This document shows, piece by piece, positions 6,016 through 22,780 of a stretch of DNA of 38,640 bases (its first letter is position 1; each line of letters opens with the position of its first letter). Made by a program: the position numbers and the translations under genes. The DNA lies in NCBI GenBank assembly GCA_913049915.1, contig CAJWZC010000032.1, positions 1-38,640 of the forward strand. The letters are read 5' to 3'. This DNA is from an uncultured Colwellia sp. Its GTDB lineage: Bacteria; Pseudomonadota; Gammaproteobacteria; Enterobacterales; Alteromonadaceae. The notes beneath the pieces are model-generated. The model saw only the letters and a program-made list of their open reading frames with translations. It had not been told where the DNA came from and did not search any database.

Positions 6016-9000
6016 ATGAACATTACTCAACTAGCTTTTACCTACCGAAAAAGCGTATTATTAATTATTACGGTATTACTTGTTAATGGCCTTTTTGCCT
6101 ACTTCACATTACCAGCACAAGAAGATCCAACTATTACCATTCGTGAAGCGATTGTTAGTACCTCCTTTCCGGGTATGGCACCCGATAGAATAGAACAGTT
6201 AATCACTAAAAAATTAGAAGAAGAAATACGAAAAATACCGCAAGTCAAAGAAATAAAATCTAGCTCTGCTACTGGTATATCTATCATTCACGTTAAAATT
6301 TATGATCGTTATTTTAACCTTGATGATATTTGGCAAAACCTACGTAATAAAGTAACCGCTGCACATAAAAAGATGCCCTCAGGTACACATACTCCTTTTG
6401 TTAACGATGAGTTTGGTGATGTATCCGTTGTTACTTTAGCGCTAACCGCTGATGGTTTTGATCTGGGTGAAATGTATGATATTGCCCAGCATATTCGCGA
6501 TACATTGTATGGTGTAGAAGGTACCAAAAAAATTGAAATTTTAGGTCGACAAGAAGAGCGTATTTTCTTAGAAGCATCTAATGCGAGGCTTGCTCAGTTA
6601 GGCATTTCTCCACAATCACTTATCAGTGAATTACAAAAACAAAATATTGTCCGCTCTGGTGGCCAAGTGAACACAGGAGCAATCAGTTTTATTGTTGAAC
6701 CCTCTGGTAATTTCAACAGCTTAGCGGATATTGGTGATACCTATATTAGTATTCCTAATACTGAAGATTTTATCGCACTAAAGGATGTTGTTTCTTTACG
6801 CCGTGATTTTATCGATCCACCAGATAAAACTGCCTACTTAAATGGTCAATCAGCGATATTCTTTGCCATCTCGATGTTGCCAGAAAATAATCTTTTAGAA
6901 TATGCTCCTCAAGTATTAAGTAAAATCAATGAAATCGAATCAAGTTTATCTATCGGCTACAACCTTGAAATTGCCACTTATCAAGCAGACCAAGTAGAAA
7001 AGACTATTAATGGTGTTTCTGTTAATGTATTACAAACGTTGGCGATTGTATTAGTAGTTGTCATTTTATTTTTAGGTTTACGCACCGGTCTTATTGTTGG
7101 TGCTATCGTGCCTTTTGTTATGCTCACCACACTAAGTATAATGCAATTTAGTGACATGAAACTCGAACGAATGAGTTTAGCGACACTAATTATATCGCTG
7201 GGTTTATTAGTTGATAATGGTATTGTTATCGCTGAAGACTTCAAACGTCGATTAGAAGATGGTGTAGATCGCTATAATGCCATGTTGCAAGGTAGTAAAG
7301 AACTCGCTATTCCGTTACTGAGCTCATCGGTTACGACTATTCTATTTTTCTTACCATTGATGTTGGCTGAACATGTTGCTGGCGAATATACTCGCTCTAT
7401 TTCACTCGTTATTCTTATTACCTTACTAACAAGCTGGATATTAGCTTTATGTGTTACCCCGCTGTTATGTTACTTCTTTATTATACTCCCTAAAGATAAA
7501 GGGACTAAAGTTAGTAAATCTGAAAAGCCAGACCCAAGTAAACTCTATCGTTGCTATGAAACGTTTTTACATTGGTTACTCAAACATAAAGCCCTATTTA
7601 TGACGACTATGTTAGCGTTGTTTATTGGCTCAATCATCTCGATGGAGTATGTCGCCAAGCAATTCTTTCCTGATTCAGATCGTACTCAAATCCTAGTTAA
7701 TATTGACTTGCCTAATGGCACTTCATCAACAGAAACTAATCGCCAGATGAAGGATATTTTCACTTGGTTAGAGGATGATGAACGTTTTAATTATATTGAT
7801 AGTTATTCCGCCTATGTTGGCTTTAGTGGCCCAAGATTCGTGATGTCGCTTAACCCTGAAGATCCAGCACAAAACAAAGGTTTTATGGTATTAAACGTTA
7901 AAGATAATACTGATATCAGTGCCACAGTACTAAAACTTGATGAACAGATTGAACATGATTTTCCAAACGTATCTGCACGCGTAAAAAAAATGTTTTTAGG
8001 TCCGTCAGACTCAAGTACTATTAAAATTCAAGTAAAAGGACCAGACAAAGACGTTATCTATAAAAAAGCACAGCAGATAATGGCCGTATTGCACGATGTC
8101 CCTAATACTATCGATATTCGGACTGATTGGGAAAACTTAATTACTAAAATTGATGTACAAATAGATCAACATAGGGCCAAGCGATCTGGCCTTACCTCTG
8201 AAGAAATTGCACAAGCGTTAGAGGCTTATTTCTCTGGTTCGAAAATTACTGAATTTCGAGAAGATGATAATGTTATTCCCATAGTACTGCGGGCAGAGCA
8301 AGCAGAACGTCAAAGCTTAGATAGGCTTAGAACCCTCAATATTTATTCAAATAAGACAGGTCAAACAATCCCTTTATTTCAAGTGGCTAACTTAGCACCG
8401 TACAATCAATTTTCGATTATTCATCACGAAGATTTGTTTCGTACTATTAGTATTCAAGCAAGAAACTCTGATGTAGCTGCTGAAGATCTTAAGCAAATTA
8501 TTGATGAAAAAATTCAGGCATTAGCCGCTGACTTACCGTTAAACCATAGTATTGAATATGATGGCGTAATTAAGGAGTCTCGTGCTGCTCAAAAAGCTTT
8601 AGGTGCTAGTATGCCGATAGTATTAGGTTTAATCTTAATATTATTAGTCGCGCAATTTAATTCTTTTAGACAAGCGGCGGTGATCGCCTTAACCATTCCA
8701 CTATCATTTATCGGGGCAGTGTTAGGACTATTTTTGATGCAAGCTCCATTTGGTTTTATGGTAACCCTAGGGCTATACAGCTTAGCGGGTATCATTATCA
8801 ATAACGCCATTGTATTGATTGATAGAATTAAAATTGAAACTGCATCAGGAAAATCTGACTATCAAGCTGTGGTTGATGCCTGTTTAACAAGACTACGTCC
8901 AATAACTATGACAACAATCACCACAGTGATGGGCCTATTACCCTTAATTATTGGTAAGGACCCCTTGTTTTACGGTATGGCTAATGTGATTGCCTTTGGT

Positions 9001-9087
9001 CTAGGTATTGGCACTATTTTAACCTTAGCGGTAGTTCCTGCCCTGTACTGTGGCTTTTATAAAATCACCAATACTTATAACAGTTAA
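6016..9087 (+). CDS. RND-family multidrug efflux permease (HAE1 type)
   Basis: About 1,023 residues, the normal length for an inner-membrane proton-driven RND pump. A first helix (SVLLIITVLLVNGLFAYF) is followed by a large periplasmic porter domain, a bundle of helices including LATLIISLGLLVDNGIVIAE, a second periplasmic domain and a final bundle with GLYSLAGIIINNAIVLIDRI. These helix-4-like and helix-10-like blocks are family hallmarks. A TTG at 6013 precedes the ATG at 6016; the ATG is preferred because it is the stronger codon. It is co-transcribed with the adaptor. Substrate is unknown; drugs, bile-like detergents or dyes are typical. Confidence 0.94.
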   Translation: MNITQLAFTYRKSVLLIITVLLVNGLFAYFTLPAQEDPTITIREAIVSTSFPGMAPDRIEQLITKKLEEEIRKIPQVKEIKSSSATGISIIHVKIYDRYFNLDDIWQNLRNKVTAAHKKMPSGTHTPFVNDEFGDVSVVTLALTADGFDLGEMYDIAQHIRDTLYGVEGTKKIEILGRQEERIFLEASNARLAQLGISPQSLISELQKQNIVRSGGQVNTGAISFIVEPSGNFNSLADIGDTYISIPNTEDFIALKDVVSLRRDFIDPPDKTAYLNGQSAIFFAISMLPENNLLEYAPQVLSKINEIESSLSIGYNLEIATYQADQVEKTINGVSVNVLQTLAIVLVVVILFLGLRTGLIVGAIVPFVMLTTLSIMQFSDMKLERMSLATLIISLGLLVDNGIVIAEDFKRRLEDGVDRYNAMLQGSKELAIPLLSSSVTTILFFLPLMLAEHVAGEYTRSISLVILITLLTSWILALCVTPLLCYFFIILPKDKGTKVSKSEKPDPSKLYRCYETFLHWLLKHKALFMTTMLALFIGSIISMEYVAKQFFPDSDRTQILVNIDLPNGTSSTETNRQMKDIFTWLEDDERFNYIDSYSAYVGFSGPRFVMSLNPEDPAQNKGFMVLNVKDNTDISATVLKLDEQIEHDFPNVSARVKKMFLGPSDSSTIKIQVKGPDKDVIYKKAQQIMAVLHDVPNTIDIRTDWENLITKIDVQIDQHRAKRSGLTSEEIAQALEAYFSGSKITEFREDDNVIPIVLRAEQAERQSLDRLRTLNIYSNKTGQTIPLFQVANLAPYNQFSIIHHEDLFRTISIQARNSDVAAEDLKQIIDEKIQALAADLPLNHSIEYDGVIKESRAAQKALGASMPIVLGLILILLVAQFNSFRQAAVIALTIPLSFIGAVLGLFLMQAPFGFMVTLGLYSLAGIIINNAIVLIDRIKIETASGKSDYQAVVDACLTRLRPITMTTITTVMGLLPLIIGKDPLFYGMANVIAFGLGIGTILTLAVVPALYCGFYKITNTYNS

Positions 9088-15050: not shown

Positions 15051-17912
15051 ATGATGGAAAAAACCTTTAACCCTACCGAGATTGAACAGTCCCTTTATAC
15101 TAGCTGGGAAGAGCAAGGATACTTCAGCCCAACGGGTGAAGGTGAGAGTTACAGCATTGCTATTCCACCACCAAATGTTACGGGTAGCTTACATATGGGT
15201 CATGCTTTTCAGCAAACCATCATGGATACGCTTATTCGTTACCAACGTATGCAAGGTAAAAACACCTTATGGCAAACCGGTTGCGATCATGCGGGTATAG
15301 CAACACAAATGGTCGTTGAACGTAAAATTGCCGCAGAAGAAGATAAAACGCGTCATGACTATGGTCGTGAAGGGTTTATCGATAAAATTTGGGAATGGAA
15401 AGAGGAATCTGGTGGTACTATTGGCAAACAAATGCGCCGCTTAGGTAACTCTATCGATTGGACTCGTGAACGCTTTACTATGGATGATGGTATGTCTGAA
15501 GCAGTACAAGAAGTATTTGTACGTTTATTTGAAGATGACCTTATTTACCGTGGTAAACGCTTGGTAAATTGGGATCCAAAATTCCATACCGCTATTTCTG
15601 ATTTAGAAGTAGAAAACAAAGATAAAAAAGGCCACATGTGGTACTTGCGTTACCCATTAGCTGACGGTGCAAAAACAGCAGAAGGCCTTAATTATTTAGT
15701 GGTTGCCACAACACGACCTGAAACAATGCTTGGTGATACCGGTATTGCAGTAAACCCTGAAGATCCTCGTTATAAAGACTTAATTGGCAAACAAGTATTA
15801 TTACCGCTAGTTAACCGATTAATTCCAATTGTTGGCGATGATCATGCCGATATGGATAAAGGCACGGGTTGTGTAAAAATCACTCCTGCTCATGATTTTA
15901 ACGATAATGAAGTAGGTAAGCGTCATGCGCTACCACAAATCAACATTTTTGATAAAGACGCGGCGGTATTAGCAAACGCTGAAGTTTATGATACCAAAGG
16001 TGAAGTATGTAACGCTTACGATACTGAATTACCAAGCGACTTCGCTGGTATGAATCGCTTTGTTGCCCGTAAAGCTATCGTCGCTAAATTTGACGAATTA
16101 GGTTTATTGGTTGAAGTAAAAGATCATGATTTAGTAGCACCCTACGGTGATAGATCTGGCGTTATCATTGAGCCGCTGCTAACAGACCAATGGTATGTAC
16201 GTGTTGAAAAATTAGCAGGCCCTGCGGTTGAAGCGGTTAAAGATGGTCAAATTGAATTTGTACCTAAGCAATATGAAAATATGTATTTTTCTTGGATGAA
16301 TAACATCCAAGATTGGTGTATTTCACGTCAACTTTGGTGGGGACACAGAATCCCAGCCTGGTATGACGAAAATGAAAAAGTCTATGTTGGCCGTACTGAA
16401 GAAGAAGTTCGTGCAAACAATGATATTGCTATTGATATGAAGTTAAGACAAGATGATGATGTACTTGATACTTGGTTCTCATCAGCCTTATGGACTTTCT
16501 CTACTTTAGGTTGGCCAAAAGAAACTGAAGATTTAAAAACCTTCCATCCTACTGATGTATTGGTAACAGGTTTTGATATCATTTTCTTCTGGGTTGCGCG
16601 TATGATCATGATGTCGATGCACTTCAACAAAGATGAAGATGGTAAAGCACAGATACCTTTCAAGAAAGTCTACATGACCGGTCTTATTCGTGATGAAAAT
16701 GGCGATAAGATGAGTAAATCAAAAGGTAATGTTACTGATCCATTAGATATGATTGACGGTATTTCTCTTGAAGATTTATTGAAAAAACGTACCGGTAATA
16801 TGATGCAGCCTAAGCTGGCCGCTAAAATTGAAAAACTGACCAAAAAAGAATATCCAGAAGGTATTGAAGCTCACGGTACTGATGCTTTACGTTTTACTCT
16901 AACGTCTGTTGCGACAACAGGACGTGATATTAGCTGGGACATGAAACGTTTAGAAGGTTACCGTAACTTTACTAATAAGTTATGGAATGCTAGCCGATAC
17001 GTAATGATGAACACCGAAGAGTTTGATTGCGGTCAAGCCTCTGGTAGTCAAATGGAGCTATCACTTGCGGACCGTTGGATCATTGGACAATTCGAGCAAA
17101 CAGTAAAAACAGTTCATGAAGCCTTTGATACTTACCGTTTCGATCTTGCCTCTCAAGCGTTGTATGAATTTACCTGGAATCAATTCTGTGATTGGTATTT
17201 AGAGCTTACTAAGCCAGTATTATTTAAAGGTAATGAAGCGCAACAGCGTGGCACGCGTCATACCTTAGTAAACGTTTTAGAAGGATTGTTACGCTTAATG
17301 CACCCTATCATGCCGTTTATTACTGAAACTATTTGGCAGCGTGTTCAGCCATTAAGTGATTTTAGTAAAAAGGGTGATTCAATCATGATTCAGGCTTTCC
17401 CACAATTTAACGAAAGTAATTGTGACCTGCAAGCGATTGACGATTTAGAATGGGTTAAACAATTTATCATTGCTATTCGAAATATTCGTGGTGAAATGGA
17501 TATATCACCAAGTAAAGAATTACCGGTATTACTTAAGAATGTCAATGAAAACGATCAACGTCGTTTAAATGAAAATCAGCAATTCTTAAGTTCACTAGCA
17601 AAACTTGAAAGCATTACCGTGTTAACTGACAGTGAGCAAGGTCCCGCATCAGCATCCGCTGTAGTAGGCGATTTATCTGTGCTTATACCAATGGCAGGTT
17701 TAATTGATAAAGAAGCTGAACTAGCTCGTTTAGATAAAGCGATAGACAAGCTTGAAAAAGATGCTGCGAGAACACGTGGCAAGCTTGGCAATGAAAATTT
17801 TGTTGGTAAGGCACCCGCAGCTGTTATTGATAAAGAAAAAGCAAAACTAGCAGACGCCGAATCAGCACTGGCTAAAATGCAAGAACAAAAAGATCAAATA
17901 GCTGCGCTTTGA
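15051..17912 (+). CDS. valS: Valyl-tRNA synthetase
   Basis: A 953-residue class I synthetase that charges tRNA-Val and edits mischarged threonine. The HIGH-type motif is [15 protein letters not shown] near residue 40-55. The editing (CP1) domain contains [12 protein letters not shown], and the KMSKS loop is [15 protein letters not shown]. The anticodon-binding helical domain follows. A C-terminal coiled coil (about 885-953, [20 protein letters not shown]) is typical of bacterial ValS. Two adjacent ATG codons (15051, 15054) are possible starts. The gap from holC is about 240 bp, so valS probably has its own promoter. Confidence 0.97.
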
Positions 17913-18383: not shown

Positions 18384-18593
18384 ATGTCTGATACAGTTAC
18401 TGGTAAAGTTAAATTTTTCAACGAAACTAAAGGTTTCGGTTTTATAGAGCAAGAAAATGGTCCTGACGTGTTTGTTCACTTCAGCGCTATCTCTGGAGAC
18501 GGTTTCCGTACTCTAGCTGACGGTCAAGCAGTTACTTTTACTGTAAAACAAGGTCAAAAAGGCCCTGAAGCAGAAAACGTACTAGCTGTATAA
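18384..18593 (+). CDS. Cold-shock protein, CspA family
   Basis: A 69-residue single cold-shock domain that binds single-stranded RNA and DNA and melts mRNA structure, acting as an RNA chaperone. [16 protein letters not shown] carries the RNP1 motif and DVFVHFSAI the RNP2 motif; the end is GPEAENVL. Length and composition are normal for the family. The long leader suggests control by temperature at the RNA level (inference). A terminator follows directly, so it is a single-gene transcript. Family members are numerous in cold-living bacteria, so no specific csp letter is assigned. Confidence 0.96.
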
Positions 18594-18735: not shown

Positions 18736-19506
18736 TTATAAACCAAACTTGTAGTGTCCCTTTCTTAGCAATTCAATTACCCAAATAAAACCTGTTAGGC
18801 AAAAGGCTAATGTTAATAAGGCAAAGAATGTTATTTGGCCATTATTAAAACTACCGACAGAGCCCTTACCCAAAAAAGGATAATCCATAAAGTGAAGCAT
18901 AAAGAAGAAATCAACAAAACGTTTATCTTCATTACTATGGCCAACTAACCGACCTGAACTCGCATCTACATAAACACTCGTCTCTAAGTCATCTAAAAAA
19001 TTAATCTGCCAAACAGTATTTTTTTCTTTGAGCATATCAGCAATAGGCGGCTCAAGTATAACTACACTACTGATGTCACCTACTCCTTTATAGCTTGCTT
19101 GCGCTAACTGACTTGCGACATTACTATCAACGATTAACTCTGTTCCTGTATAAGCATCTAACAAGCTGTAATCACTCTTAAAGTGGCTATAAAGTCCTTT
19201 TTCATGGGTTAATAAGTAGTAAGGATGACCTAGTCGCTGTACCAAAGTAACTTCACTCACTGGTACATGACTCATTGCGATAATTAAATTGGGGTTAAGT
19301 AAACGCTGATTATTAATTTCTTGGACTACAACCGCCTGCTTATTATAGTTACCACGGGCTTTATTATGATCCATCAAATTAAAAAACAACCCAGTACCTA
19401 GCCAAATTAATAGTTGTATAAAAACTAATAACGATAACCATTTATGCAATGATTTAACGGTTGAAAACTTAAATAGCTTCGATTTATGCTGATTAACTTG
19501 TCTCAT
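18736..19506 (-). CDS. PepSY-domain membrane protein (second of a tandem pair)
   Basis: A 256-residue protein with a cytoplasmic N-terminus and a first helix (about 24-44) entered by the motif SLHKWLSLL (His21). A PepSY-like domain faces the periplasm (about 55-190; the block DASSGRLVGH is typical). A short membrane-entry segment with FFMLHFMDYPF (His205) and a last helix (about 225-247) follow. It is a paralogue of the gene just upstream (19530-20252), with the same HKW and LHFMDY-like positions. PepSY/PepSY_TM proteins occur with iron or flavin redox systems and with peptidases. The paired histidines could bind haem or metal, but this is inference. Last gene of a three-gene operon. Confidence 0.75.
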   Translation of the reverse strand: MRQVNQHKSKLFKFSTVKSLHKWLSLLVFIQLLIWLGTGLFFNLMDHNKARGNYNKQAVVVQEINNQRLLNPNLIIAMSHVPVSEVTLVQRLGHPYYLLTHEKGLYSHFKSDYSLLDAYTGTELIVDSNVASQLAQASYKGVGDISSVVILEPPIADMLKEKNTVWQINFLDDLETSVYVDASSGRLVGHSNEDKRFVDFFFMLHFMDYPFLGKGSVGSFNNGQITFFALLTLAFCLTGFIWVIELLRKGHYKFGL

Positions 19507-19529
19507 TAGCTATCTCCGTCTTAGCACCT

Positions 19530-20252
19530 TTAATATTTTTCTACTTGGTTTGGTTTAGGACTATAGTGCTTAGGAGTAAGGCGATAATACGTTAGTACTA
19601 AGCCAAATATGCTGCCAATAAAGGCAAGCACAGTAAATAAAAGTAATAACTTATTATCAGCTTCACCATCGATATAATCCATAACATGAAAGACAAACAT
19701 CCAATCAAATATTCGCCAGTAGTTATGTCGCTTCGTTACTAATTGTCCAGAGTTAGCACTAATATAAAAGCTAGGACTGGAAAAATCATCAAAATCAACT
19801 CGCCATACTGGTAAATGTCTACGATTTAATTCACTAGGAGAGTCACCAGTAAGTAACAACACTTTTTCAATATTTACACTGTTATCGTGATAGTTCTCTT
19901 TCGCGATAGAAACCGCTAACTGCTGGCTGATTGGCGATAATTTTTGACCATTAAACGCAGAAATTAGCATTTTGTTTTTATTAAGATTAAAACGATAAAC
20001 TACTTTTTTTAACATAAAGCCAAGTTCGATATTTGATGCCTGTGGGTAGGTTACCAGTAACTCTTTGAAAGAGTACATAACTTGATCTGCGGCTAGGTTT
20101 TTCTGTTTATTAATAACAAGTGTATCTCCATGAATATAGTCAATATCCATTAACACCATATAGGCTCCAGTTATAGACCAGGTTAACAGTTGAAAACCAA
20201 CAAATAACATAAACCATTTGTGATATTTTCGACTTTCTTGATACAAAGGCAT
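19530..20252 (-). CDS. PepSY-domain membrane protein (first of a tandem pair)
   Basis: A 240-residue protein with the same plan as its downstream paralogue. KYHKWFMLFVGFQLLTW (His11) opens the first helix (about 12-34), then comes a periplasmic PepSY-like domain (about 40-180, with SANSGQLVTKRH near its end). FDWMFVFHVMDY (His189) and a final helix (about 201-222) follow. The gap to the upstream C15-like gene is 14 bp and to the downstream paralogue 23 bp, so the three are almost surely co-transcribed. The function of the pair is not known. Conserved histidines at both membrane borders are the only obvious candidate ligands. Confidence 0.75.
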   Translation of the reverse strand: MPLYQESRKYHKWFMLFVGFQLLTWSITGAYMVLMDIDYIHGDTLVINKQKNLAADQVMYSFKELLVTYPQASNIELGFMLKKVVYRFNLNKNKMLISAFNGQKLSPISQQLAVSIAKENYHDNSVNIEKVLLLTGDSPSELNRRHLPVWRVDFDDFSSPSFYISANSGQLVTKRHNYWRIFDWMFVFHVMDYIDGEADNKLLLLFTVLAFIGSIFGLVLTYYRLTPKHYSPKPNQVEKY

Positions 20253-20266
20253 AACAACATCTCCCT

Positions 20267-21457
20267 TTAAATCTCAGCTAATGCTTGTACTAACATCGCT
20301 TCAATTTGGGTAATAATGGCTTGGTTTATTTCAGCATCAAAATGACTAATACGTGGGGTATGAATATGTCCTGTTGGAATTGTTGAACCAAGTCGGTTGC
20401 GCAATACAATACTACGGTAAGAAATTTCGTTCGATAAATAACCCCCACCACCACCTTGTACGGAGACCTTATCTACAAGTTCGGTTATGCTATTACTGGT
20501 AATATATTTGGGGGTACCATTTTCGAGTATAGTTACCCCGCGATTATTATTAATTTTGTAATTACCTTTAGCTTTCATCATCGCTTTATAAGGTAAACTA
20601 AACCGTACGAATTCATCACCTATTAATGGTACTGCCAATAAACTAGGTACTAAAGGATTTGTTTTATTAGCGCCTGTATAGACATTTATATTATCTGGTA
20701 CCGTTGCACTGCGCCTTAAGCCAGGGAAATGTTCTAAATCAAAATCACTTCGGCCCATTGAGAGAGTAGAAATTAAGTCAACGCTATTGAGGGCATAAAA
20801 AGGTGCAAGTAAATTTTCAATTTCACCTTGATCAAAGTCGCTATAACGCACCGGGACCATAACAGTATTAATTTCTGCGGTAATTGTTTTTTTAACCCCA
20901 GCGACCACTGTATGATATTTAATGACAGTACCATCAAGTAATAGCGCGGCTAAACCTGATGGATTAGACTGTTTTAGGTTGCGATCAAGTAAAAAGGGAT
21001 CAAAACCCGTTAAAAATATGCGTTTATCGGTCGATTTTATATAGTCCATATCGCTGTAACCACGAGAGCTTTTTTCAAAAACTTCTAGTAAGCTTTCTAA
21101 CTCGATTTGAGTAAAGCTATTTTGCGTTGATTTAATAAAATAATGAATCGCTAATCTAGTCCAATATAAAGGCCTATCATCTACCATTCCTCCTAATTGG
21201 GCTTGCTGCTTACTATGCTGCCACAGTTCATCGCCCAATTGGTTCATCGCACGTTGCGCTATGGGGAAATCACTAATATTCGACCAACTACGATTAAAAG
21301 TAGACCAATCAAAATAGCTTTTTAACATCGGCATAGCTTGCTGCGCTTTGTCTACACGCTGCTCTTCAATAGTTAGCTTAACTTGCTCGTTAGCATTAAG
21401 GTTTGTTGTGCTTATTATAAGCCACAAAAAAGTAAATATTGGAACAACGTGTTTCAT
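20267..21457 (-). CDS. Secreted pyroglutamyl-peptidase-like (C15 fold) protein with serine at the nucleophile position
   Basis: A 396-residue protein with a signal peptide (about 1-22, cut after LNANA-like NANE). An extra region of about 120 residues comes before a domain resembling pyrrolidone-carboxylate peptidase (C15). The matching blocks, in family order, are RIFLTGFDPF (146-155), NTVMVPVRYSDF (197-208), MGRSDFDLEHF then ATVPDN (234-256), GGGGGYLSNEISYRSI (335-350) and PTGHIHTPRI (361-370). By alignment Glu242 and His366 match the catalytic Glu and His. The catalytic Cys position (family pattern GTxVCN) is Ser342. An insertion of about 60 residues lies between the second and third parts. 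Either an altered peptidase or a binding protein. First gene of an operon with two PepSY proteins. Confidence 0.7.
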   Translation of the reverse strand: MKHVVPIFTFLWLIISTTNLNANEQVKLTIEEQRVDKAQQAMPMLKSYFDWSTFNRSWSNISDFPIAQRAMNQLGDELWQHSKQQAQLGGMVDDRPLYWTRLAIHYFIKSTQNSFTQIELESLLEVFEKSSRGYSDMDYIKSTDKRIFLTGFDPFLLDRNLKQSNPSGLAALLLDGTVIKYHTVVAGVKKTITAEINTVMVPVRYSDFDQGEIENLLAPFYALNSVDLISTLSMGRSDFDLEHFPGLRRSATVPDNINVYTGANKTNPLVPSLLAVPLIGDEFVRFSLPYKAMMKAKGNYKINNNRGVTILENGTPKYITSNSITELVDKVSVQGGGGGYLSNEISYRSIVLRNRLGSTIPTGHIHTPRISHFDAEINQAIITQIEAMLVQALAEI

Positions 21458-21578: not shown

Positions 21579-21615
21579 AAAATGACGGTATATTTTTATA
21601 AAACATACCGTCATT
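21579..21615 (-). terminator. Terminator after ribBX
   Basis: AATGACGGTAT pairs with ATACCGTCATT; on the minus strand a run of six T follows the stem. It closes the rib transcript and separates it from the C15/PepSY operon. Confidence 0.88.
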
Positions 21616-21670
21616 CAAAATGTATTTCAAAGCTATTAGCTAATCAGTAAGGAACTAATCAATAAAACAG

Positions 21671-22780
21671 TTAGTCCGCAATATATTCAACTACTTCTAA
21701 ACCAAAACCTGATAGTGAATGGTATTTAGTTTGAGAGCTTAGTAAACGCATTTTACTAACACCTAAATTCGCTAATATTTGTGAGCCTACACCAACATTA
21801 CGAGAACCGACATGACGATTAATTTCTTTTACCGTTTCACCCGCATCAATCTTGGCATACTTTTCTACTAAGTTAATTAATTCATTAGGAGATTCATGCT
21901 TACCAAGTAAGACAAGTACGCCGCCTTCTTTAGCAATCTTTTCCAATGCATTAGCCATTGGCCAAGTCGCCACACTTTCACGTTGGCTAAATAATAAATC
22001 TCTAAAAGTATTTTCTAGATGGACACGTACTAACGTTGGCTGGTCAGCTTTAATTTCACCGTTAGTTAAAGCAAAGTGTGCTTGACCATCAATAGTATCT
22101 TTAAATACAGTTAAATCAAACTCACCAAAGGCAGTTGGTAATTTGCATTGAGAAACGCGTTTAATCGTTGTTTCGGTCGCATTTCTAAATTCAATTAAAT
22201 CAGCAATAGTACCCATTTTAATATCATGCTTTTCTGCGATGATTTCTAAATCAGGACGGCGTGCCATAGTGCCATCTTCATTTAAAATCTCAACAATAAC
22301 AGCAGCTGACTCAAAACCCGCCATACGAGCTAAATCAACACCAGCTTCAGTATGACCGGCACGATTTAATACACCGCCATCTTTAGCAATTAATGGGAAA
22401 ATATGACCTGGTTGTACGATATTAAGATGTGTAGCTGTTTTATTTGCCGCAGCAAGCACTGTCGTTGCACGATCAGCAGCAGAAATACCTGTAGTTACAC
22501 CTGTGGCCGCTTCAATTGATACGGTAAAATTAGTACTAAATTGTGCATCGTTTTTATCGACCATCAAAGGTAACTTTAATGTTTCACATTTTTGACGACT
22601 CATTGGCATACAAATTAAACCACGGCCGTGAGTTGCCATAAAATTAATCGCTGTAGGGGTCACTTTTTCCGCAGCCATAATGAAGTCACCTTCATTTTCT
22701 CTGTCTTCATCATCCATTAAAATAACCATCTTACCTAAGGCGATGTCTGCGATGATTTCTTGTGGGGTATTTAAGTTCAT
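21671..22780 (-). CDS. ribB: RibB-RibX: DHBP synthase fused to a degenerate GTP cyclohydrolase II domain
   Basis: A 369-residue protein. The N-terminal part (1 to about 203) is 3,4-dihydroxy-2-butanone 4-phosphate synthase, which turns ribulose 5-phosphate into a riboflavin precursor. It keeps [10 protein letters not shown] (23-32), [10 protein letters not shown] and [12 protein letters not shown] (139-150). The C-terminal part resembles GTP cyclohydrolase II (RibA) but its three zinc cysteines appear replaced: [20 protein letters not shown] (251-270) has Asn257, Glu268 and Val270 where RibA has Cys. It should therefore not hydrolyse GTP. Such RibB-RibX fusions are known in proteobacteria; a separate ribA is expected elsewhere. 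It follows ribE by 131 bp. ribH and nusB do not follow, unlike in many relatives. Confidence 0.9.

Follow-up and report, generated by a model that had tools for sequence, protein, structure and literature searches.

Three described systems bear on the locus studied here. Family C15, which includes pyroglutamyl peptidase I (Pcp), is the sole family of MEROPS clan CF and is described as a cysteine family with a Glu, Cys and His triad (PMC12445089). Among PepSY_TM reductases, FoxB carries two haems, each held by two conserved histidines, two per membrane face, and in CrpH replacement of the periplasmic histidine pair mimics deletion (PMC13038864). The third is the CusCBA/CusF efflux system (HME-RND, TIGR00914). 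Our locus lies in a 38,640-nucleotide stretch of an uncultured Colwellia sp. (contig CAJWZC010000032.1), referred to here as the window, whose closest relatives in a tree of C15-like proteins are Colwellia genomes. It consists of a C15-like gene (20267..21457, 396 residues) and two genes for paralogous PepSY proteins, PepA (19530..20252, 240 residues) and PepB (18736..19506, 256 residues). All three are on the minus strand between 21457 and 18736, 14 nucleotides separating the first from the second and 23 the second from the third; the open reading frame (ORF) coordinates confirm the arrangement given in the original prediction. We believe, with somewhat more confidence than doubt, that two modules of different origin share this operon, a serine C15-like hydrolase and a split haem reductase from a Cus operon, and that they were joined in Colwellia.

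How secure is the kinship of the C15-like protein with Pcp? A predicted signal peptide and an N-terminal part (residues ~25-140) precede the C15-like domain (~142-396). Pfam PF01470 matches residues 146-188 with E=1e-4 and 22.9 bits (cut-off 22.7), and NCBIfam PRK13197 matches residues 309-376 with E=4.7e-4 and 20.2 bits, under its cut-off of 199. Alignment by hhalign of 31 C15-like relatives with 17 Pcp or Pcp-like proteins, obtained from 17 of 30 loci, gave a probability of 98.3 and E=1.1e-14 over 193 columns. The profile of the 31 relatives, searched against the whole PDB at E<=1, retrieved 13 distinct sequences, all pyrrolidone-carboxylate or pyroglutamyl peptidases, with a best E of 0.0097 and no single stretch significant by itself; phmmer with the window protein returned one chance-level match from the PDB (E=0.08). 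By the Pfam, hhalign and PDB profile results, the last ~250 residues share ancestry with family C15, as had been proposed. A PF01470 search of the window's genome found nothing at E<=0.001 and missed the window protein itself, so this negative counts only against a canonical Pcp in that genome.

The original prediction also placed a serine at the nucleophile position with the other catalytic residues retained, and this too holds. In both the hhalign and the joint alignment, Ser342 (codon 20432..20434, minus strand) aligns with catalytic Cys145, a cysteine in 17/17 Pcp sequences, while Glu242 aligns with Glu82 and His366 with His169. The survey of Ser conservation asked for at that stage gave a uniform answer: Ser342, Glu242, His366, Tyr340, Leu341, Asn343 and His364 each occur in 78/78 different C15-like sequences, as does the TGFDPF motif, and NPS is kept in 77/78. 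These 78 are the sequences distinct over their last 250 residues among 99 rows from loci searched by profile, 53 from searches of the window's own family and the named loci and 25 from order-level loci (L145-L169) with four family codes other than the window's; the count excludes rows weaker than E=1e-30 and unfetched matches, including all of f186 and f252. With a column called fixed when conservation reaches 90% among the 31 C15-like sequences and 80% among the 17 Pcp sequences, 32 are fixed in both groups; the two groups agree on the residue in 23 of these, TGF.PF and NPS among them. GR....E, (G)YLxN and GxIHxP are likewise common to the C15-like family and pyroglutamyl peptidase I. The C15-like protein thus has homology over the catalytic domain and the Glu and His of family C15; because the defining Cys is absent, it is a variant of C15 and not a C15 cysteine peptidase.

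The gene was found in 84/295 genomes drawn from the window's family (19/52 genera), in 56/295 drawn from the order (16/99 genera, seven family codes) and in 2/369 drawn from the class, these two being the window's own genome and one of its family. Two viral-contig scans revealed no C15-like relative. As judged from the sequences compared, C15 relatives with a natural exchange of Cys for Ser form a real and unusual family, and among the matches listed from the open-licence literature there was no serine-type C15 enzyme.

Predicted export distinguishes the family from pyroglutamyl peptidase I as well. By a simple rule, a strongly hydrophobic N-terminal stretch is present in 31/31 aligned rows, the window's included, although the row of L052 starts upstream of its likely start, and 3/31 have a lipobox. 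Since all rows are hydrophobic at the N-terminus and three carry a lipobox, this rule-of-thumb result supports the view that the family is exported and sometimes lipidated. The extra N-terminal part, ~115 residues long, has conserved motifs of its own (EE.R, DDR.LYW.RL and SRG) and no match in Pfam or NCBIfam. Both the export and the additional N-terminal region anticipated from the single sequence are supported.

What would such a protein do? The C15-like family, predicted to be exported, is scattered over the order and descends from the pyroglutamyl-peptidase fold; in it Ser342, His366 and Glu242 most likely form a serine-hydrolase triad. Its putative periplasmic substrate would be an N-terminal pyroglutamyl residue or a similar lactam or cyclic amide. 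Several observations argue for caution. Nine of the 32 fixed columns differ between the groups, and besides the Cys-to-Ser exchange these include His364 in place of the invariant Phe167 and Ser233 in place of the invariant Gly71, both around the triad. The stretch from Glu242 to Ser342 spans 100 residues, compared with 63 in Pcp. These changes mean that the substrate may differ or that the protein may only bind. Moreover, a Ser for Cys normally kills C15 enzymes, and engineered Cys-to-Ser variants of Pcp are not known to be active. Models give the triad no help: AlphaFold2 returned a mean predicted local distance difference test (pLDDT) score of 50.8 and no usable active site for the full-length chain with 13 sequences, and a mean of 58.2 for the domain alone with 14 sequences, the catalytic part being mostly below 50. 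Foldseek found no match at E<=0.001 to this low-pLDDT domain model. The best of its uniformly weak matches were nucleoside phosphorylases, methylthioadenosine (MTA) nucleosidases and a PAC2 protein. C15 belongs to a phosphorylase/hydrolase-type fold, and these matches are compatible with such a fold and prove nothing.

A pseudoenzyme would accommodate the altered site. The C15-like protein would then be secreted to bind pyroglutamate at N-termini, or some similar ligand, with Ser in place of Cys and the remaining conserved residues, among them the TGFDPF and NPS motifs, shaping a pocket. We regard this as a credible minority view. Drift of at least one of Ser, His and Glu would be expected in a pure binder, whereas each is invariant in the 78 sequences. 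The proposal of a natural, active, periplasmic serine peptidase of C15 fold, recruited in Colwellia into a copper-efflux operon with its own haem-based copper reductase, is itself made tentatively, as an attractive possibility that falls somewhat short of probable. Were it true, clan CF would become a mixed cysteine/serine clan, with representatives in many members of a mostly marine order. With Ser at the nucleophile position throughout, and with Glu, His and the residues of the pocket preserved, such a family would illustrate the conversion of a thiol enzyme of the cytoplasm into an exported one that withstands oxidation, and would offer a clean natural test of the Cys-to-Ser exchange. The novelty of the locus would lie in this serine C15 family; the membership of PepA and PepB in the PepSY superfamily is known, and here they occur in a copper-pump setting.

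Why, then, do two PepSY genes follow? Both PepA and PepB are homologous to proteins that are paired in other genera, and their surroundings there are informative. We hand-picked 20 loci with a PepSY pair (L084-L103), one per genus, from the best matches outside the window's genus. In 17 of them the gene immediately upstream of the pair is CusA; CusB is present in all 17, and CusC is labelled too in each except L092. CusA (over its curated cut-off), CusB and the TolC-like protein were each identified by family search in one example, and the others by BLAST to these. In six of the 20 (L090, L091, L093, L095, L096 and L100), CusA continues into PepA within one ORF of ~1280-1295 residues, and L072:5160-9044, outside the 20, is a seventh case. 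Such an ORF would join the pump to a predicted haem electron carrier. In 12/20 loci, and also in L072, L073:3433-5283 and L075, PepB continues into a complete 2Fe-2S/FAD/NAD domain of the NqrF-like kind; it runs into only the first 60-80 residues of the reductase domain in L092, L101 and L102 (3/20), and no such domain was found on the PepB homologue in the remaining 5/20. The tail-bearing protein follows CusA-PepA in nine of the 12 loci with a full domain. The identity of this domain comes from family searches for L072 and L073 and from BLAST for the other loci. A protein combining PepSY_TM with an NqrF-like domain is an apparent NADH-fed periplasmic metal reductase. In Colwellia genome G155 the CusB protein includes a copper-binding domain of CusF type, and L074, L077 and L078 have DUF411-like genes ahead of CusC. 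In other genera, as seen at 17/20 hand-picked loci, PepA and PepB belong to a Cus copper-efflux operon. The genes upstream of the pair in these relatives are those of the CusCBA/CusF system, namely CusA, CusB with a CusF domain and a TolC-like protein; the relatives differ from that system in adding the PepSY pair.

Across the window's family, PepA has a match in 212/295 genomes and PepB in 207/295 (E<=0.001), so both are commoner than the C15-like gene; the two counts overlap because the queries are paralogues, and they include more distant PepSY proteins. Among the matches listed from the open-licence literature we found neither a PepSY protein tied to a Cus pump nor a single CusA-PepA ORF. 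PepSY and CusCBA appear together in work on uranium, and in the passages seen of one paper that names PepSY, CusA and copper the PepSY and CusA loci are separate. No paper in that literature combined any two of peptidase C15, PepSY and Colwellia.

The original prediction took the PepSY proteins for possible regulators or anchors of the C15-like protein, as in protease propeptides and inhibitors. The tight, co-oriented packing of the three genes would suit such a role, as would the presence of both PepSY genes beside the C15-like gene in 10 of 13 named loci, some of which are the same strains as other genomes in the set; of the other three, L035 has a PepA remnant only and two have neither gene. 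Co-occurrence of the three genes had been set beforehand as the test, and its outcome was divided. The pair adjoins the C15-like gene in 9/84 genomes among the matches listed, and all nine fall in the window's genus (14 genomes), so the association stands in the Colwellia lineage. It does not extend beyond: the pair is beside the C15-like gene at 0/19 loci from 18 other genera, and at 1e-5 nothing matching PepA, PepB or the Cus proteins turned up at any of 25 order-level C15-like loci of 2.9-4.2 kb. A propeptide or inhibitor would be expected to accompany its peptidase. Common neighbours of the C15-like gene in other genera are asnB-like, mltD-like, gloB-like and ABC-transporter-like genes. 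Even within Colwellia, genomes G109, G191, G235, G281 and G292 have the C15-like gene without PepSY neighbours, and in two Colwellia a TonB receptor fills the same slot. Conversely, none of the 20 hand-picked stretches, in 17 of which the pair follows CusA, contains a C15-like gene. An inhibitor function is further disfavoured by the invariant membrane-border histidines of the pair, as in FoxB and CrpH, and by its frequent NADH-reductase tails. We therefore consider a regulatory or anchoring role very improbable. The linkage is lineage-specific and looks like the result of operon rearrangement.

How do PepA and PepB themselves compare with FoxB and CrpH? The PepSY_TM profile (PF03929) matches PepB with 34.6 bits, over its cut-off of 28.8, and PepA with 19.3, below it; PepA found no match in the PDB. 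A full-length PepSY_TM protein occurs elsewhere in the window's genome, a 390-residue frame (L172, G000:C153:1217-2290) that scores 157 bits against the same cut-off and is a one-chain relative of the FoxB type. PepA conserves His11, His41, His176 and His189 in 42/42 rows, and PepB conserves His21, His190 and His205 in 50/50; rows under 180 residues were dropped, the window enters both counts in duplicate, once as the query and once as a locus, and several strains are present twice. Histidines at both membrane borders, which had been noted in the window's two proteins, are thus invariant in these rows, namely His11 and His189 in PepA and His21 and His205 in PepB, putatively on opposite faces. 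A single chain of the FoxB and CrpH type has four or more membrane helices, whereas PepA and PepB are each about half that length; a crude hydropathy cut detected two helices in PepB and, of the two expected in PepA, one. If each of these half-size proteins supplies one histidine to either face, the pair would reproduce the FoxB set of two per face, and we therefore suggest that PepA and PepB are a split haem reductase of FoxB/CrpH type. The pair would differ from FoxB and CrpH in being divided over two genes and, in relatives, in its CusCBA operon and in the full NADH reductase domain of 12/20 PepB homologues. A survey of PepSY-like gene clusters with flavinylated proteins recorded 1077 PepSY-like genes with PF00175 (PMC8238504); it has the combination of PepSY with an NAD-binding reductase domain in common with our loci, concerns iron, and leaves Cus pumps unmentioned in the passages available.

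What might the substrate be? PepA and PepB would be halves of a membrane reductase with two haems, acquired together with a DUF411-CusC-CusB-CusA operon and passing electrons from the cytoplasmic side probably to periplasmic Cu(II) and so yielding Cu(I), the form handled by Cus pumps. In relatives, the operon membership, the fusion to CusA, the fusion to an NADH domain and the conserved histidines are observed; haem binding, the partnership of the two proteins, the metal and the direction of electron flow are predicted from them. Such a reductase, joined to CusA or to an NADH domain, would suggest, in a form open to direct test, how Cus pumps that are specific for Cu(I) cope with Cu(II) in an oxidising periplasm. 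Some findings pull the other way. The window's PepB has no electron-input domain. In L084, L087 and L099 (3/20) the pair is not beside Cus genes, and each of these stretches has a TonB-receptor-like ORF, which in L087 is directly upstream of the pair. Related PepSY_TM proteins catalyse the reduction of ferric siderophores (PMC13038864). Iron, in ferric siderophores or in haem, might accordingly be what the pair reduces; the pair's presence in Cus operons would then reflect general metal redox balance, and the TonB receptor directly before PepA in L087 and in two Colwellia would fit. The position of 17/20 pairs after CusA, with six in one ORF with it, the CusF domain on the CusB of G155 and the DUF411-like genes before CusC make iron an unlikely substrate in our view, and we retain copper as the probable one.

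How did the two modules meet? The site between a ribBA-like gene (21671..22780, minus strand) and a valS-like gene (15051..17912, plus strand), names we assign presumptively from sequence, can be compared across genomes. In G155 and G174 its order is ribBA, a small ORF, DUF411, CusC, CusB, CusA, C15, PepA, PepB, valS. In G281 and G292 it is ribBA, CusC, CusB, CusA, TonB receptor, PepA, PepB, valS, the C15-like gene being elsewhere. The window and its kin have ribBA, C15, PepA, PepB, valS; G109 has ribBA, DUF411, C15, valS, with its Cus-PepSY operon elsewhere; and G191 has ribBA, C15, valS. In G048, from another genus, the Cus-PepSY operon likewise adjoins valS. A tree of joined PepA and PepB sequences, in which the window is counted twice and G174 is left out as its PepA piece is too short, unites the 15 C15-linked rows in one clade (99/96); its nearest neighbours are the two TonB-receptor rows (98/94), followed by G048, whose 94/94 is under the mark for firm support. 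The C15-like tree also gathers the proteins from the ribBA-valS site, 15 rows, into a single clade (100/98).

Both trees are probably best explained if the C15-like gene inserted once between CusA and PepA, in a Colwellia lineage, and losses followed. In the window's branch, CusCBA would then have gone from the site, leaving C15-PepA-PepB. CusA, CusB and CusC are absent from the window locus; a close CusC-CusB-CusA set lies on contig C40 of the same genome, where we found no PepA, PepB or C15 match. Each of the 14 genomes of the genus that were checked has retained a CusA with 79-100% identity to the one in G155. It is at the ribBA-valS site in G155, G174, G281 and G292 and elsewhere in nine genomes; the fourteenth genome is G235. 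Three observations speak against so simple a history. G109 and L040, which are without the pair, nest among linked rows in the C15-like tree, so that the link label needs two changes and, by that tree, two gains are possible. G191 and G235 keep a close CusA and have no PepA or PepB match among those listed. In Colwellia sp. TT2012, only a PepA remnant (L035:7180-7434) and no PepB was found beside an intact C15-like gene, which shows that the PepSY pair can decay while the C15-like gene stays.

Was the C15-like gene kept for a copper role? It might mature or degrade a periplasmic copper-binding peptide and have been retained in the Cus operon for that purpose, in keeping with its position between CusA and PepA in G155 and G174, its place beside DUF411 in G109 and the single clade formed by the proteins of this site. 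At the 19 loci from 18 other genera, however, no Cus-cluster member lies within ~12 kb of the gene, and L040 and L066 keep it without adjoining PepSY or Cus genes, so we hold such a role to be rather improbable. The link between the C15-like gene and the PepSY pair is best read as historical; a functional tie is only possible, and any tie to copper is unproven.

As to expression, the C15-like gene, PepA and PepB may form a transcription unit of their own, since a terminator-like hairpin (21580..21616, minus strand) divides the C15-like gene from the ribBA-like gene; such hairpins are a weak signal in this region, with three observed against 2.1 expected from shuffles. Promoter-like sites are at the shuffled level (13 versus 14.1). 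Between PepB and the valS-like gene lies an ORF of 69 residues (18384..18593, plus strand) that we take to be cold-shock-like. The window also holds an RND transporter gene of another subfamily at 6019-9069, which matches TIGR00914 with E=4.3e-101 and yet falls below its cut-off.

Some related loci have further features. The TonB-dependent receptor in the CusA-PepA slot is seen in two Colwellia (L070/L071 with L079/L080), whose sister lineages have the C15-like gene there. In G281, where the C15-like gene is off the ribBA-valS site, it is followed by a short ORF (L063:6570-7073), presumably a repetitive extragenic palindromic (REP)-associated transposase. Long ORFs of 1246 and 1261 residues (L032:1824-5564 and L037:1534-5319, respectively) lie between ribBA and the C15-like gene, and at both loci this interval also holds an ORF of 376 residues.

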